Of a DNA stretch of 64,000 bases, positions 1,301 to 15,211 are shown in pieces; position 1 is the first letter of the stretch, and each line of letters opens with the position of its first letter. The DNA lies in NCBI RefSeq assembly GCF_900141765.1, contig NZ_FSRK01000003.1, forward strand, positions 62,001-126,000, given 5' to 3'. The stretch is from Epilithonimonas zeae. Its GTDB lineage: Bacteria > Bacteroidota > Bacteroidia > Flavobacteriales > Weeksellaceae. The position numbers were made by a program, and so were the translations under genes. Below the pieces are notes generated by a model. The model did not search any database and was not told the origin of the DNA. It was given only the letters and a program-made list of their open reading frames with translations.

Positions 1301-2095
1301 TTACCATCCACCAGAAGCACCGCCTCCGCCGAAACTTCCTCCGCCGCCAAAGCCACCGAAACCGCCTCCACTGCTTCCGCCACCAAATCCGCCGCCGCCG
1401 AAGCTTCCCGGAAATGGGAAAAATCCGCCTCGGTATCTTCGGTTTCCTTTTCTTGATAGTGTGTAATCATCGTCATCGTAGTTTCCGCCGCCGTTATTAC
1501 CATTCAGAATACTTATCAAAATAATAATGACAATTATAATCAGAATAATAGCGCCAATACTGATTCCGTCATCGTTCTTTTGTTTCTTGACAATCGGTTT
1601 GAATTTCCCTTGTACCGCTTCCATAATAGCAGACGTTCCACGGTCAATTCCATTATAGAACTCTCCTTTTTTGAAAGCTGGTGTGACAAGATAATCCAAA
1701 ATCTGCCCTGCAACCGAAGCCGTCAAATATTGCTCAACAGCACGACCTTGCTGGATAGACATTGTTCGGTCTTCTGTAGCAATCAGGAAAACAACACCAT
1801 TATCAACACCTTTTTGTCCGATTCCCCATTTTTCGCCGTACATTGTTGCGAGATAATTGACATCTTCCCCACTGGTTGTCGGGAGAATTATGACTTCAAT
1901 TTCTGTCGAGGTAGAATCGGAGAACTTGATGAGTTTTTGATTCAAAGCCTCTTTTTCAGATTCCGACAGCAATCCTGCTTTATCATATACAGGATAAAGA
2001 ACCGCCGGTTTTTCAGGCACCAATTGAGCTTTGGAAAACAATCCAAAAATCAGGAATAATGCGAAAATATATCGTTTAAGAGAAGCTGATATCAT
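1301..2095 (-). CDS. TPM domain protein with glycine-rich tail (YgcG family)
   Basis: A secreted or membrane-anchored TPM (Psb32/YgcG) domain protein of about 264 aa. It has an N-terminal signal segment (ISASLKRYIFALFLIFGLFSKAQ) and then the TPM domain, with YDKAGLLSESEKEALNQKL, STEIEVIILPTT and GVVFLIATEDRTMSIQQG. One transmembrane helix follows (IGAIILIIIVIIILISIL). The tail is almost pure Gly/Ser/Phe (GGGGFGGGSSGGGFGGFGGG) and ends GGGGASGGW, typical of this family. TPM domains bind metal, some have phosphatase activity, and the proteins are linked to membrane and photosystem quality control. The real task is unknown. The frame extends further upstream, but the ATG at 2095 (or 2107) gives a proper signal peptide. 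It overlaps the preceding TPM gene by about 20 bp, so the lemA-TPM-TPM genes are probably co-translated. Confidence 0.85.
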   Translation of the reverse strand: MISASLKRYIFALFLIFGLFSKAQLVPEKPAVLYPVYDKAGLLSESEKEALNQKLIKFSDSTSTEIEVIILPTTSGEDVNYLATMYGEKWGIGQKGVDNGVVFLIATEDRTMSIQQGRAVEQYLTASVAGQILDYLVTPAFKKGEFYNGIDRGTSAIMEAVQGKFKPIVKKQKNDDGISIGAIILIIIVIIILISILNGNNGGGNYDDDDYTLSRKGNRRYRGGFFPFPGSFGGGGFGGGSSGGGFGGFGGGGSFGGGGASGGW

Positions 2096-2504
2096 TGGGT
2101 AATTCATTGATATTTTCCCCAACTACAGGGAAATATTTTTTCAGTTCGAGTCCGGTTTTCAGAATGGCATCTTTCAGACCTTTGTAATAATTTTTTTTTG
2201 CAAATTCGGAAGTAATTTCATCGTGGAGATTATCCCAAAATGTTTGCTTTACTTTTTTATGAATGCCTTCGTCTCCGATAATCGTGAGATAATGTTGTTC
2301 AAAATTCACATAAAACAAAATGCCGTTTCTTTCTTTGGTAAGATGCATTTCCAACGAATTAAAAATCGCAAATGCTTTTTTTGCAAAATCATCTTCGGCG
2401 GTGGAATCTATATGCACACGAATCTCACCCGAAGAATGGTCTTCAGCTATTTTGATGGCTTCCACAAGGGAAGCCATCTCTGTATCTGTAAGGAAGTGAT
2501 TCAT
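2076..2504 (-). CDS. TPM domain protein, cytosolic short form
   Basis: A 142-aa protein that is almost only a TPM domain: LTDTEMASLVEAIKIAEDHS, SGEIRVHIDSTAED, RNGILFYVNFEQHYLTIIGD and GIHKKVKQTFWDNLHDEI. There is no signal peptide or membrane helix, unlike the neighbouring TPM protein. Its ATG shares one base with the lemA stop (TAATG), indicating translational coupling, and its end overlaps the next TPM gene. A lemA gene followed by short and long TPM genes is a recurrent Bacteroidetes arrangement. Function is not established beyond the domain name; a role at the membrane with LemA is inference. Confidence 0.88.
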   Translation of the reverse strand: MNHFLTDTEMASLVEAIKIAEDHSSGEIRVHIDSTAEDDFAKKAFAIFNSLEMHLTKERNGILFYVNFEQHYLTIIGDEGIHKKVKQTFWDNLHDEITSEFAKKNYYKGLKDAILKTGLELKKYFPVVGENINELPNDISFS

Positions 2505-10837: not shown

Positions 10838-10885
10838 TGTTGGTTGGTGATAATTCTTAAATTTACGTCTTTAAGAAAATTAGCT

Positions 10886-11851
10886 ATGATAAAAGCAGGA
10901 CTTGTAGGAGCGGGACATTTGGGGAAAATCCATTTGAGATTACTTAATCAATCTGAGAAATATGAACTCGTTGGTTTCCACGATAAAGACTCAGAAAACG
11001 GCAGAAAACTGGAAGCGGAATTCGGTTATAAATATTTTGAAAGTTTGGAGGAACTTTTGAACGAAATCGAAATGTTGGATATTGTAACGCCAACACTTTA
11101 CCACTACGATTATGCCATAAAAGCAATTGAAAAAGGCATTCATTTTTTCATTGAAAAACCTGTAACACAGACTTTGGAACAAGCGGAAGAAATTCTTCAA
11201 AAATGCAACCAATTTGGAATCAAGGCGCAAGTTGGTCACGTGGAAAGATACAATCCAGCGTTCATTGGTGCTAAAGATTATATTAAAAACCCAATGTTCA
11301 TTGAGATTCACAGATTAGCGGAATTCAATCCGAGAGGAACGGATGTTTCTGTGGTTTTGGATCTGATGATTCACGATCTGGATATTTTGTTGAGTTTGGT
11401 AAAGTCGAAAGTGAAATTGATACACGCAAGTGGTGTTTCCGTTGTGAGCAAAACGCCGGACATTTGCAACGCCAGAATTGAGTTTGAGAATGGTTGTGTT
11501 GCGAATTTGACGACGTCAAGAATCTCAATGAAAGCCATGAGAAAATCGAGGTTTTTCCAGCAGGATGCTTACGTTTCTGTTGATTTCTTGGAAAAAAAAT
11601 CTGAAGTTATCAGAATGAAACCAGCGCCTGAAAATCCGTCTAACTTTGATATGATTATCGAAAATGCGGAAGGCGAGAAAAACCAGATCCTTTTCGAGTA
11701 TCCGAACATTCAGCCGAATAATGCAATTCTTGATGAGTTAGAAAGTTTTGCCAATGCTATCAAATATGATGTTCCCGTTCAGGTTTCTTTGGAAGATGGG
11801 ACGGAGGCTTTGAAGGTTGCTTTGGAGATTGTGAGGTTAATACAGAAATAG
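10886..11851 (+). CDS. Gfo/Idh/MocA family oxidoreductase
   Basis: A 321-aa NAD(P)-dependent dehydrogenase. It shows GLVGAGHLGKIHLRLL (dinucleotide loop), the canonical EKP in HFFIEKPVTQTLEQAEEIL, then QVGHVERYNPAF and VLDLMIHDLDILLSL with the catalytic Asp-x-x-x-His region. The GHVERYNPAF and MIHDLDI pattern resembles the UDP-sugar dehydrogenases found near lipid A or sugar genes in Bacteroidetes, but no such neighbours are seen here, so the substrate stays open. ATG 10886 fits the Rossmann start; a longer frame to 10844 is less likely. Only 5 bp separate it from the ankyrin gene. Confidence 0.87.
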   Translation: MIKAGLVGAGHLGKIHLRLLNQSEKYELVGFHDKDSENGRKLEAEFGYKYFESLEELLNEIEMLDIVTPTLYHYDYAIKAIEKGIHFFIEKPVTQTLEQAEEILQKCNQFGIKAQVGHVERYNPAFIGAKDYIKNPMFIEIHRLAEFNPRGTDVSVVLDLMIHDLDILLSLVKSKVKLIHASGVSVVSKTPDICNARIEFENGCVANLTTSRISMKAMRKSRFFQQDAYVSVDFLEKKSEVIRMKPAPENPSNFDMIIENAEGEKNQILFEYPNIQPNNAILDELESFANAIKYDVPVQVSLEDGTEALKVALEIVRLIQK

Positions 11852-11856
11852 AGTTT

Positions 11857-12600
11857 TTGAAATATTACAAATTATTATTAATCATTATGGCTTTTTCTTT
11901 TTTTGGATGTAAGAAAGAAACTTATGTTCCAATTGAATGTATGGACTTTCATCAACTTGTTGCTAAAAATGATATTAATCGAGTTGAATATCATTTGAAA
12001 AACAGAATGAATCCAAATTGCATAATTAATGCTGGTGTAACTCCTATAATGACTGCAGCCGTATATAATAGAACTGATGTAATTGATTTTCTAATATCAT
12101 ACAATGCCGAAATCAACAAACAAACGGATTCTGGTTGGACTGCTCTTTTATATGCTGCAGAAAATGGCAATTATCAAGCTGTAGATTTACTTATAAAAAA
12201 AGGAGCTAATATCAATTTAAAATTAAAAGGAGGAGAAAATGCATCAACCCAAGCCTGCTACAAAGGGCATTTTAAAGTTGCAAAACTGCTTTTGGATAAA
12301 GGAATTGATGTAAATACTTCAGATAATGAAATTGGATTAAATGCCTTGATAATGACATCTGATGTAGGAAATTTGGAGTTGGTTAAAACAATCCTACCAC
12401 TCACGGATAATATTGACCATCAAAATAAATATGGAGAGACAGCTCTTATGAGAGCAGCAATGAAAGGACATTATGATGTTGCAAAATATTTACTTGAGAT
12501 GAAATCGAATAAATCAATAAAAGATACCTTTGGAAATGACGCTTTGTTTTATGCAAATAAATTTGATCAACAAAGACTTGTAGAACTACTAAGTAACTAA
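11857..12600 (+). CDS. ankyrin repeat lipoprotein
   Basis: A 247-aa lipoprotein. The N-terminus KYYKLLLIIMAFSFFGC ends in a lipobox, so Cys 18 would be lipidated. Five to six ankyrin repeats follow (GVTPIMTAAVYNRTDVIDFL; GWTALLYAAENGNYQAVDLL; ACYKGHFKVAKLLLDKGIDV; GETALMRAAMKGHYDVAKYL), so the mature protein is mainly a binding solenoid. The TTG at 11857 is needed to give a positively charged signal peptide; ATG 11887 would remove it. The gene sits 5 bp after an oxidoreductase gene and 7 bp before the putative nuclease gene. Partner unknown. Confidence 0.85.
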   Translation: MKYYKLLLIIMAFSFFGCKKETYVPIECMDFHQLVAKNDINRVEYHLKNRMNPNCIINAGVTPIMTAAVYNRTDVIDFLISYNAEINKQTDSGWTALLYAAENGNYQAVDLLIKKGANINLKLKGGENASTQACYKGHFKVAKLLLDKGIDVNTSDNEIGLNALIMTSDVGNLELVKTILPLTDNIDHQNKYGETALMRAAMKGHYDVAKYLLEMKSNKSIKDTFGNDALFYANKFDQQRLVELLSN

Positions 12601-12607
12601 ATTTTCA

Positions 12608-13222
12608 ATGAATCTTCCTCTTCTTGAATCAGAACTCAAAAAGCGTCTTGGTTGTCCTTACAACTGGGGAAGAAAACAGTCGGATGAATGGGACAGAAAA
12701 ACGAAGTTCATTTATCTGGTTCAAGATTTTGAAAGTCTGGAAAATCAATGCAAGGATTTTGATGAAGGTTTGAGAAATTATGCTTTCAATCGTTGGCTGA
12801 ATTTCTGGTCGGCAAAGGCGGTTGAGGATATTTTTGCTTCGAATTCTTTAGTTAAAAAAGAGGCAAATCAGTTTTCAAAAACTGTGGATTTTTATATTTC
12901 GGGAATTCCGTTTGATCATAAAAGCAGTGTATTCCCGAAACAATTTGGAAAAAGTTTTGATTATGCTGTTGATCACAAAAAAGAATTGGTAGAATGGCTT
13001 TACAATAATCAAAGTCAGCAAGGAAGAAAACATTTAGCTAATCGACTTTTCATTATTTTTTATGATGAGAATAATGGTGAACATTGGAAATTGAAAACCC
13101 AACTTTCTTTAATCCAAGAAAAAATCACAGATTATCTCAGCAATTTTTCGGGAGACAATTTAGTTTCCCTAAATTTGGAATCTCACGAGATCCTTTCAGA
13201 TTTGATTTGGATCAAAGCATAA
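12608..13222 (+). CDS. putative type II restriction endonuclease (PD-(D/E)xK-like)
   Basis: A 204-aa protein I do not recognise as a named family. It opens MNLPLLESELKKRLGCPYNW. In the middle it has VDFYISGIPFDHKSSVFPKQ: an Asp, then a hydrophobic strand and Asp-His-Lys, which fits the D-x(n)-(D/E)-x-K active site of the PD-(D/E)xK nuclease fold. A basic stretch, QSQQGRKHLANRLFIIFYD, follows. No signal peptide or membrane helix is present. It ends 3 bp before a DNA adenine methyltransferase gene, the usual layout of a type II restriction-modification pair. The nuclease call rests on that motif and the neighbour, so it is inference. It could instead be an accessory or specificity protein. Confidence 0.6.
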   Translation: MNLPLLESELKKRLGCPYNWGRKQSDEWDRKTKFIYLVQDFESLENQCKDFDEGLRNYAFNRWLNFWSAKAVEDIFASNSLVKKEANQFSKTVDFYISGIPFDHKSSVFPKQFGKSFDYAVDHKKELVEWLYNNQSQQGRKHLANRLFIIFYDENNGEHWKLKTQLSLIQEKITDYLSNFSGDNLVSLNLESHEILSDLIWIKA

Positions 13223-13225
13223 TTC

Positions 13226-14224
13226 ATGAATTACATCGGTTCCAAAAACAAACTTTCGGATTTTATCAGACAAAGCGTTTATCAAGTTGTTGGTAAAGAT
13301 TTATCCAACAAAATATTTTGCGATCTCTTCGCCGGAACCGGAATTGTCGGACGAAATTTCAAAGCGGAAACCAAGAAAGTCATCAGCAACGATTTTGAAT
13401 TTTATAGCTTTGTTCTCAACCGAAATTACATCGGAAATCATCAGGAAATCAATTATGAAAATTTGATTAATGAATTGAATTCAATTGAAGGAAAATCTGA
13501 CTTTATTTCAGAAGAATATTCTGAAAACGGAAAATCGGAACGACTTTACTTTTCTGAGGAAAACGGAAAAAAAATTGACGCTATCCGACAAAAAATCGAA
13601 GATTGGAAAATCTCGGGAAAAATCAATGAAGATCAATATTATTTTCTGCTTTGCTCACTATTGGAAGCGGCTGATAAAATCGCCAACACGGCTTCGGTTT
13701 ATGGTGCGTTTTTGAAACAAATCAAAAAATCGGCGCAGAAAAAATTGGAACTTCAGCCTGCCAATTTTGAATTGACCAAAAACAAACACGAGGTTTATAA
13801 TGAAGATGCCAACGAATTAATCAAAAAAATCGAAGGCGATATTCTTTATCTCGATCCACCTTACAACGCGCGACAATACGGCGCCAACTATCATCTTCTA
13901 AACACGATTGCGAAATATGACAATTTTTCTCCAAAAGGAAAAACGGGATTGAGGAATTATCAAAAATCAAAATACTGCAGCAAAATAGAGGTTTCAAAAA
14001 GCTTCGAAGACCTCATCGAAAATGCAAAATTTCAACATATTTTCCTAAGCTACAACAACGAAGGATTGATGACAGAAAGTGAAATTAGAAATATACTTTC
14101 CAAATTCGGGAAATATGATATATTTACAACCGAGTATCAGCGTTTCCGTGCAGACAAGGAAGAAAACAGAAATCATAAAGCTTCGGAAACGATAGAGTAT
14201 CTTTATTATCTTCTAAAAGAATAA
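13226..14224 (+). CDS. D12-class DNA N6-adenine methyltransferase
   Basis: A 332-aa amino-methyltransferase. It opens MNYIGSKNKLSDFI, the conserved D12 N-terminus. SAM motif I is FCDLFAGTGIVGRNF (about residue 34). Motif IV is LYLDPPYNARQYGANYHLLN (about residue 212), whose DPPY binds the target adenine. A long segment between them would hold the target recognition domain, as in the alpha (D12) class. Conserved HLLNTIAKYD and FLSYNNEG follow. DPPYNxRQYxxNYH is typical of restriction-associated adenine methylases. It probably protects the host from the nuclease encoded just upstream. Recognition site unknown. Confidence 0.92.
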   Translation: MNYIGSKNKLSDFIRQSVYQVVGKDLSNKIFCDLFAGTGIVGRNFKAETKKVISNDFEFYSFVLNRNYIGNHQEINYENLINELNSIEGKSDFISEEYSENGKSERLYFSEENGKKIDAIRQKIEDWKISGKINEDQYYFLLCSLLEAADKIANTASVYGAFLKQIKKSAQKKLELQPANFELTKNKHEVYNEDANELIKKIEGDILYLDPPYNARQYGANYHLLNTIAKYDNFSPKGKTGLRNYQKSKYCSKIEVSKSFEDLIENAKFQHIFLSYNNEGLMTESEIRNILSKFGKYDIFTTEYQRFRADKEENRNHKASETIEYLYYLLKE

Positions 14225-14320: not shown

Positions 14321-15211
14321 ATGAAAAATATTGTTGTAATAGGTGCCGGAACTATGGGAAATGGCATTGCGCATACCTTTGCTCAAAGCGGATTCCAGGT
14401 AAGTTTGGTAGACGTGAAACAGGAAAATCTTGATAAAGCCATAAAGACCATCATCACCAATCTTGACAGAATTATTGCCAAAGGAAATTTGACCGAAGAA
14501 GAAAAAGCCACTACACTTGGCAACATTACAACATTCTCAGATTTGAAAGAAGCTGCTCCTAATGCTGATTTGATAGTAGAAGCAGCAACGGAAAACCTGG
14601 ATTTGAAATTAAAAATCTTTACTCAGATTGATGAGTTGGCGCCAGAAAACTGTATTCTTGCGACCAACACTTCTTCTATATCTATTACTCAGATTGCAGC
14701 AGCAACAAAACGTCCTGATAAAGTCATCGGAATGCACTTTATGAATCCTGTTCCAATTATGAAATTGGTAGAAATCATCAAAGGTTATTCGACTTCCAAA
14801 GAGACTTTTGATACGATTTTCAAGATGTCTAAACAATTGGGAAAAGTTCCTACTGAAGTGAACGATTATCCAGGATTTGTAGCCAACAGAATTCTGATGC
14901 CAATGATTAATGAAGCTATCGAAACCCTGTACAACGGTGTTGCTGGTGTTGAAGAAATTGATACCGTGATGAAATTGGGAATGGCACATCCAATGGGACC
15001 TTTGCAATTGGCAGATTTTATTGGACTTGATGTTTGTCTGGCAATCCTGAATGTGATGTACGATGGTTTCAAAAATCCTAAATATGCCCCAAATCCATTA
15101 TTAGTCAATATGGTAATGGCCGGCAAGAAAGGCGTGAAATCGGGCGAAGGTTTCTACGATTATTCTGAAAGTAAAAAGGCTGAGAAAGTTTCGAAAATGT
15201 TTTTAAAATAG
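14321..15211 (+). CDS. 3-hydroxybutyryl-CoA / 3-hydroxyacyl-CoA dehydrogenase
   Basis: A 296-aa enzyme. The NAD fold is IVVIGAGTMGNGIAHTFAQS with Asp in SLVDVK (residue about 32), giving NAD preference. The signature GMHFMNPVPIMKLVEII carries the catalytic His, DYPGFVANRILMPMINEA follows, and the C-terminal domain has MGPLQLADFIGLDVCL and GKKGVKSGEGFYDY. It interconverts (S)-3-hydroxyacyl-CoA and acetoacetyl-CoA-type esters in beta-oxidation or short-chain metabolism. Length is that of the single-function Hbd/PaaH enzymes. It starts 96 bp after the methyltransferase gene, so it is likely a separate unit, and a secreted protein gene follows after 6 bp. Confidence 0.93.
   Translation: MKNIVVIGAGTMGNGIAHTFAQSGFQVSLVDVKQENLDKAIKTIITNLDRIIAKGNLTEEEKATTLGNITTFSDLKEAAPNADLIVEAATENLDLKLKIFTQIDELAPENCILATNTSSISITQIAAATKRPDKVIGMHFMNPVPIMKLVEIIKGYSTSKETFDTIFKMSKQLGKVPTEVNDYPGFVANRILMPMINEAIETLYNGVAGVEEIDTVMKLGMAHPMGPLQLADFIGLDVCLAILNVMYDGFKNPKYAPNPLLVNMVMAGKKGVKSGEGFYDYSESKKAEKVSKMFLK

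Follow-up and report, generated by a model that had tools for sequence, protein, structure and literature searches.

A pair of adjacent genes from Epilithonimonas zeae, here named N and M, very probably forms an orthodox Type II restriction-modification system in which M would methylate, and N, a putative nuclease of the PD-(D/E)xK type, would cut one palindrome, most likely CATG, the whole behaving as a mobile cassette. The window, i.e. the whole stretch of 64,000 nucleotides analysed here, belongs to a genome of 4 contigs and 4.08 Mb. A Type II pair had been suggested in an earlier note made from the letters of this stretch, and the suggestion has gained support from several sides: linkage of N to a methylase in 42 of 47 counted occurrences, co-occurrence of both genes within the genus, a natural fusion, nuclease-type residues in N and the avoidance of a single palindrome.

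The N open reading frame (204 aa, ATG start) includes VDFYISGIPFDHKSS and is followed on the same strand, after a gap of 3 bp, by M (332 aa, also with an ATG start). The product of M matches the Pfam family PF02086 MethyltransfD12 (E 9.6e-57, 193 bits against a cut-off of 22) and the PADLOC model PDLC03257 MTase_II (E 7.7e-136), and carries FAGTG at residues 35–39 and DPPYNARQY at residues 210–218. Together, PF02086 and the FxGxG and DPPY motifs identify it, at the level of sequence, as a D12 class adenine-N6 DNA methyltransferase, so that the adenine methylase placed by the earlier note 3 bp after the 204-aa protein is borne out. The coordinates likewise agree with the tight row described there, in which an oxidoreductase is followed after 5 bp by an ankyrin gene (TTG start) and this, after 7 bp, by N. 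Neither the ORF list nor a Pfam scan covering five genes at the locus revealed a translocase, specificity or helicase subunit.

Table 1. Positions in the window of the N-M pair, of its predicted functional residues and motifs and of the neighbouring genes.
Feature	Position	Strand	Evidence
N, PD-(D/E)xK-like putative restriction endonuclease, family uncatalogued	12608..13222	+	no library match; AlphaFold2 pLDDT 89.4, pTM 0.86; methylase linkage
E73 codon, long helix ahead of the first strand	12824..12826	+	invariant in 19/19 rows; helix 53-77 in the model
D94 codon, directly before strand 95-97	12887..12889	+	invariant in 19/19 rows; model
D103-H104-K105 (DxK) codons, strand 100-108	12914..12922	+	D103 and K105 invariant in 19/19 rows; model
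M, D12 class adenine-N6 DNA methyltransferase (by sequence), 332 aa	13226..14224	+	PF02086, PDLC03257
M, methylase motif I, FAGTG	13328..13342	+	sequence
M, methylase motif IV, DPPYNARQY	13853..13879	+	sequence
CATG overlapping the M start codon	13225..13228	+	1 of only 21 CATG in the window
GFO_IDH_MocA oxidoreductase, conserved left flank of the insertion site	10883..11851	+	PF01408; matched in 23/23 genus genomes
Ankyrin-repeat gene, other cargo of the variable site, outside the system	11857..12600	+	PF12796; between the flanks only in the window genome among 23
3-hydroxyacyl-CoA dehydrogenase, conserved right flank	14321..15211	+	PF02737; matched in 23/23 genus genomes

N itself gave no match in NCBIfam, PADLOC, Pfam or PHROGs up to E 1, nor among PDB sequences up to E 10, and profiles of its family returned only chance-level matches to the PDB (best E 0.15 and 0.26). 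No published description of the family was recognised in the open literature. The family is therefore new in a defined sense, being absent from Pfam, NCBIfam, PADLOC, PHROGs, PDB sequences and the literature searched, with REBASE outside the comparison, and the word "undescribed" in the earlier note holds for these libraries and this literature and does not extend beyond them. Type II endonucleases diverge so far that many escape profile libraries. FatI, a restriction enzyme to consider here, comes from a Flavobacterium. That N belongs to a characterised family listed in REBASE and missing from the libraries used, for instance that of FatI, is a possibility to which we give some weight, although we think it doubtful; it would alter the novelty of N and leave the mechanism as proposed. 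FatI cuts /CATG according to PMC6449724, but PADLOC does hold type II endonuclease models, with which it detects a Sau3AI relative beside N in one genome, and gives N nothing.

Relatives of N at 79–90% identity were found at eight loci in records named Epilithonimonas, Chryseobacterium and Flavobacteriaceae. Across genomes, N is present in 15 of 197 from the family Weeksellaceae (13 of these from the genus of the window), in 19 of 395 from the phylum and, by profile, in 12 of 395 from the class, one of the latter (G695) being judged spurious. One relative resides on a Priestia megaplasmid. None was found in 50,697 phage records, while a profile search placed relatives on four viral contigs, none of which was detected with N alone as the query. 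The family comes in a short form of about 202–277 aa and a long form of about 363–374 aa, lengthened by an N-terminal addition and an insertion; hhalign shows both to be homologous (probability 99.3, E 4e-20).

The residues conserved in this family are of the nuclease type. E73, D94, D103 and K105 are invariant in all 19 aligned short-form sequences (relatives 25–90% identical to N), as are Q135 and R140, and the long-form counterparts E164, D184, D193 and K195 are invariant in 6 of 6 aligned sequences. A DxK motif alone is weak evidence; the retention of these residues throughout both forms, along with the recurrence of the pair elsewhere, points to more than chance. A confident AlphaFold2 model of N, obtained with a 13-sequence input, places them on a helix at 53–77 (E73), followed by a strand at 82–84, a strand at 95–97 with D94 just before it, and a strand at 100–108 holding D103 and K105; after this come helices at 117–133, a strand at 146–152, further helices and two final strands. 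The order helix, strand, strand with Asp, strand with DxK, helix, strand is that expected of a PD-(D/E)xK core, and in alignments and model alike N shows the residue pattern of this superfamily, i.e. acidic residues and a DxK on adjacent strands with a Glu on the preceding helix.

Structure searches with the same model were less informative. Foldseek found nothing in the PDB at E<=0.001 (best E 0.05, led by maltodextrin and glucan phosphorylases) and nothing at E 0.001 or better in a viral library (best E 0.027). The weak PDB matches do include RecE, EcoO109I, PaqCI and Card1, with many unrelated folds ranking above them, so the PD-(D/E)xK assignment is based on the topology and the conserved residues. 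For the long form the model was of low quality (pLDDT 70), and the structure search with it gave uninformative matches. Of the PD-(D/E)xK fit claimed at the outset, the confident model, the expected order of elements and the conserved residues have thus stood, and a significant structural match has not been added to them. It might be argued from the lack of a significant Foldseek nuclease match, and from the nuclease activity of N being a prediction, that N is a non-catalytic partner of M such as a specificity or control subunit. We regard this as extremely improbable, as even relatives with 25% identity to N retain E73, D94, D103 and K105, a constancy not obviously required of a structural subunit, and as the partner methylases differ in class.

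All 23 genomes assigned to the genus of the window were searched for the pair. Every one of the 13 with N also has M (85–100% identity), within 132 bp of N in 12 of them and 2.8 kb away in one, and none of the 10 genomes without N has M, two of these having only a 48% relative, which also occurs in the window genome and in G141. A second D12 methylase, 48% identical to M, lies at 1366-2355 (-) of locus L002 (G000 contig 1), with no N-like ORF in the 3.8 kb covered. Among the neighbours of the insertion site in the genus genomes, part of them Pfam-scanned, visual inspection revealed no gene for a translocase, specificity or helicase subunit.

The oxidoreductase and the dehydrogenase that border the pair are matched throughout the genus, and what lies between them varies. 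Thirteen of the 23 genomes have the N-M pair there (12 of them together with one or more additional genes), 5 have a Vsr-like gene and 2 have other genes only; in the remaining 3 no ORF of 70 aa or more separates the two flank matches, which are 77–154 bp apart. In G153 the site is divided over two contigs. The pair is a cassette gained and lost at a site that varies in content while the chromosomal genes on either side are conserved. Where the earlier note had left a choice between insertion into an existing operon and recruitment by it, insertion is favoured by the universal flanks, the three empty sites and the different cargo elsewhere, and recruitment was rejected in its favour on account of the empty sites. 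Since the window genome alone was found to have the ankyrin gene at this place, it was rejected as a component of the system, and at a variable insertion site its operon-like spacing looks incidental.

Two other kinds of cargo deserve mention. Of the 10 pair-free genomes, 5 have a Vsr-like mismatch endonuclease gene at the site (L105, L109, L103, L101, L102), three of the five being Pfam-confirmed. In G115 (L113, 1168-3838), N and M are separated by an m5C methylase and a Sau3AI-family endonuclease (NF040973, E 2.5e-166), and we read this arrangement as one putative restriction system nested inside another.

Beyond the genus, the association of N with methylases is wide. In 42 of the 47 counted occurrences (genus, 13/13; other short forms, 12/17; long forms, 17/17) N is fused to a methylase or has one no more than 2.8 kb away on its own strand, and in 39 of the 47 the two are fused or at most 206 bp apart. 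Left out of the count of 47 are G907, in which a contig end truncates N and no methylase could be seen; G695, the spurious case above (a 62-residue match inside a 1711-aa ORF); L026, where G153 has another, incomplete N at the edge of a contig; a duplicate entry for G792; and the second fragment of the gene in G493. Loci L003-L010 are not counted separately, and in L010 M again starts 3 bp after N. Twenty-three of the 42 partners were scanned against Pfam and all 23 exceeded a DNA methylase cut-off, a further 12 are 85–91% identical to M, and the remaining 7 match scanned partners by BLAST at 1e-118 or better, with seeds taken from the same loci.

The partners are of several kinds and come from two Pfam families. 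An M-like D12 methylase is found in the genus, in G555 and G537 and on the viral contig L094, so that the combination of N with D12 extends to other bacteria and to a viral contig. A second D12 type accompanies N in G526, G704, G779, G611, G649, G651, G721 and G680. An N6_N4 methylase of about 350 aa is the partner in G334, G346, G515, G429, G459, G484, G326 and G525, with another small ORF between the two genes in G484 and G326, and a methylase of about 510–540 aa with a partial N6_N4 match in G189, G322, G379, G243, G422, G493, a second copy in G484 and viral contig L096 (the loci of G422 and G493 hold only part of it). On viral contig L093 the N6_N4 methylase has an extra front part, which in our reading is ParB-like. 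In G473 (L085, 6171-8357, -) the two activities would reside in one natural fusion of 728 aa, a D12 methylase followed by a long-form N.

Occurrence of N without a methylase, which would have spoken against the pair, was not seen to be widespread, the five cases of 47 with none found nearby being G096, G637, G792, the Priestia plasmid and viral contig L095. In G096 (L090, L091) and G637 (L145, L162), N and a D12 methylase of the same PADLOC family as M are located on different contigs, neither adjoining the other; both of these unlinked methylases (n=2) exceed the Pfam methylase cut-off, and the PADLOC family was matched in 0 of 14 control genomes. These two may be split restriction systems. 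In G792 (99% complete) neither of the two methylase models searched was found, and the methylases that the records of the Priestia plasmid and L095 do contain, elsewhere than beside N, are weak or different ones.

The five unaccompanied genes, and the Vsr-like genes at the same site in half of the pair-free genomes of the genus, could be taken to mean that N is a DNA repair or homing nuclease of Vsr-like character that merely travels with methylases. This is very unlikely in our judgement: N has no Vsr match in Pfam, its methylase partners come from two Pfam families and include one that is fused to it, and palindrome avoidance suits restriction better than repair. A Vsr-like repair role as the main reading of N was rejected because of the methylase linkage and the fusion. 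Within a restriction role, a bolder reading, which we offer tentatively and hold to be rather doubtful, would make N a mobile endonuclease family with a fixed CATG target whose methylase has been swapped among at least four kinds from two Pfam families, the fusion and the separate-contig cases included, so that the nuclease and not the methylase would set the identity of the system.

Palindrome avoidance provides indirect evidence for the target. The window holds 21 CATG sites against 215 expected from shuffles. In 200 kb from each of three genus genomes with the pair and three without, the observed/expected ratio was 0.17, 0.16 and 0.12 versus 0.31, 0.37 and 0.48, a larger difference than for any other 4-base word that was frequent enough to compare; GATC and GGCC showed smaller ones. 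Over the 23 genus genomes the median ratio was 0.15 with the pair and 0.39 without it (Mann-Whitney p 0.0014 with no correction for kinship among these related genomes, 16 of which were represented by 20-kb samples and one by a 12-kb sample). Corrected for the 16 palindromes, p for CATG is 0.022; the other 15 palindromes gave p 0.028 or more. The two ranges overlap, with 0.15 in G119 (no pair) and 0.37 and 0.30 in G123 and G106 (with the pair). A rough tree from two genes, several of its nodes weak, requires at least five changes in the presence of the pair, and a clade formed by G087 and G106 (with the pair) and G135 (without) displays no CATG contrast. More distant genomes with N have CATG ratios of 0.26–0.55 in 10 of 10 sampled, which we set aside as support for the target because other palindromes are equally low there and N-free controls are lacking. 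From the avoidance seen in the genus, CATG is the most likely target of the pair.

A homologue of M offers a second hint. In the Agrobacterium phage Atu_ph07, a protein 48.6% identical to M bears the label "ulcer associated adenine specific DNA", which we read as hpyIM-type. The hpyIM methylase of H. pylori recognises CATG and its gene adjoins the endonuclease gene iceA, as described in PMC4450513 and PMC13340068. No endonuclease was recognised beside this phage homologue, which has a 370-aa neighbour without a Pfam match, nor beside the closest plasmid relative of M (57%), and three other neighbourhoods of M relatives on plasmids or phages were uninformative about the target.

An N-M pair of Type II with some other target, CATG avoidance being a genus-wide trace of other or lost systems, has to be weighed against this. 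CATG is also depleted in the 10 pair-free genomes of the genus (0.15–0.60), as is GATC in many genus genomes, and PMC4687349 reports that traces of lost systems persist in relatives of the same genus. The same lingering traces would equally account for the milder CATG depletion of genomes without the pair if CATG is its target. Rusinov et al. attribute site avoidance only to orthodox Type II systems, in which endonuclease and methylase are separate (PMC4687349). We consider a target other than CATG unlikely, given that CATG alone among 16 palindromes separates the 13 genomes from the 10 at p < 0.02 and that the "ulcer associated" label on the M homologue favours CATG.

Two further observations concern these words. 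The GATC ratio spans 0.17–0.94 across the genus without a clear link to the pair (p 0.4), and perhaps reflects another restriction system that comes and goes. Where N and M are 3 bp apart in the genus, a C precedes the ATG of M and forms CATG in 6 of 6 genomes; where they are spaced more widely, this is so in 0 of 7. The same C-ATG is found in G537 and viral contig L094 and is absent from G555, G096 and G637. The CATG at the M start codon is possibly a self-regulating site.

Among characterised systems, several resemble the pair in part. Pfam includes an IceA family, to which N, having no Pfam match, would not belong. The HpyI (IceA1 / M.HpyI) and NlaIII systems have a CATG target (PMC4450513, PMC13340068, PMC6449724), as predicted for N-M, and likewise set a methylase beside a small endonuclease; the labelled homologue of M adds to the likeness with HpyI. 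They differ in that N is without a Pfam family, the comparison being one of family models rather than of the NlaIII and IceA1 sequences. Type IIP systems with PD-(D/E)xK nucleases share a small separate endonuclease, one methylase and a palindromic target (predicted for N-M), and N, at an estimated 24 kDa or so, lies inside the 18–42 kDa range given in PMC4081073. The differences are that the N family is absent from Pfam, NCBIfam, PADLOC and PHROGs and that relatives of N have several kinds of methylase as partners.

M also matches, with residues 1-331, the first half of the 646-position PADLOC model PDLC03287, which we take to be a FokI-type model, and two plasmid relatives of M (35% and 37%), methylases of about 645–650 aa, adjoin endonucleases annotated with a FokI C-terminal domain. 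In contrast to such systems, M is single-domain and N is not FokI-like. The 728-aa fusion, with its N-terminal D12 methylase and C-terminal N domain, recalls BtgZI (Type IIC), for which PMC4081073 gives the same domain order; the likeness noted is one of domain order, and in the window the two are separate genes.

Putting these data together, a scheme can be proposed in which methylation, cleavage, target, dimer formation and a role in defence are all predicted from sequence and model. Throughout the host chromosome, M would methylate the adenine on both strands of a short palindrome, for which CATG is the most likely candidate, a single methylase being suited to a palindromic target. N would be a small metal-dependent endonuclease, probably dimeric, with the metal held by D94, D103 and nearby acids, and would cut the same palindrome where it is unmethylated, in incoming phage or plasmid DNA. 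The cassette would move in and out of its site, relatives of N pairing with different methylases according to lineage.

The kind of system is thus known, Type II restriction-modification; its endonuclease family is missing from the libraries that were searched, and its target is likely to be CATG. Since the defence and protein-family libraries used do not recognise the N family, annotation based on them would overlook the nuclease gene and might present M as an orphan methylase. A CATG target, if true, would explain the strong avoidance of this word in Epilithonimonas. The exchange of partners and the possible split pairs lift the system above routine, and N, as one nuclease family with many methylase partners, informs how restriction systems assemble and move.
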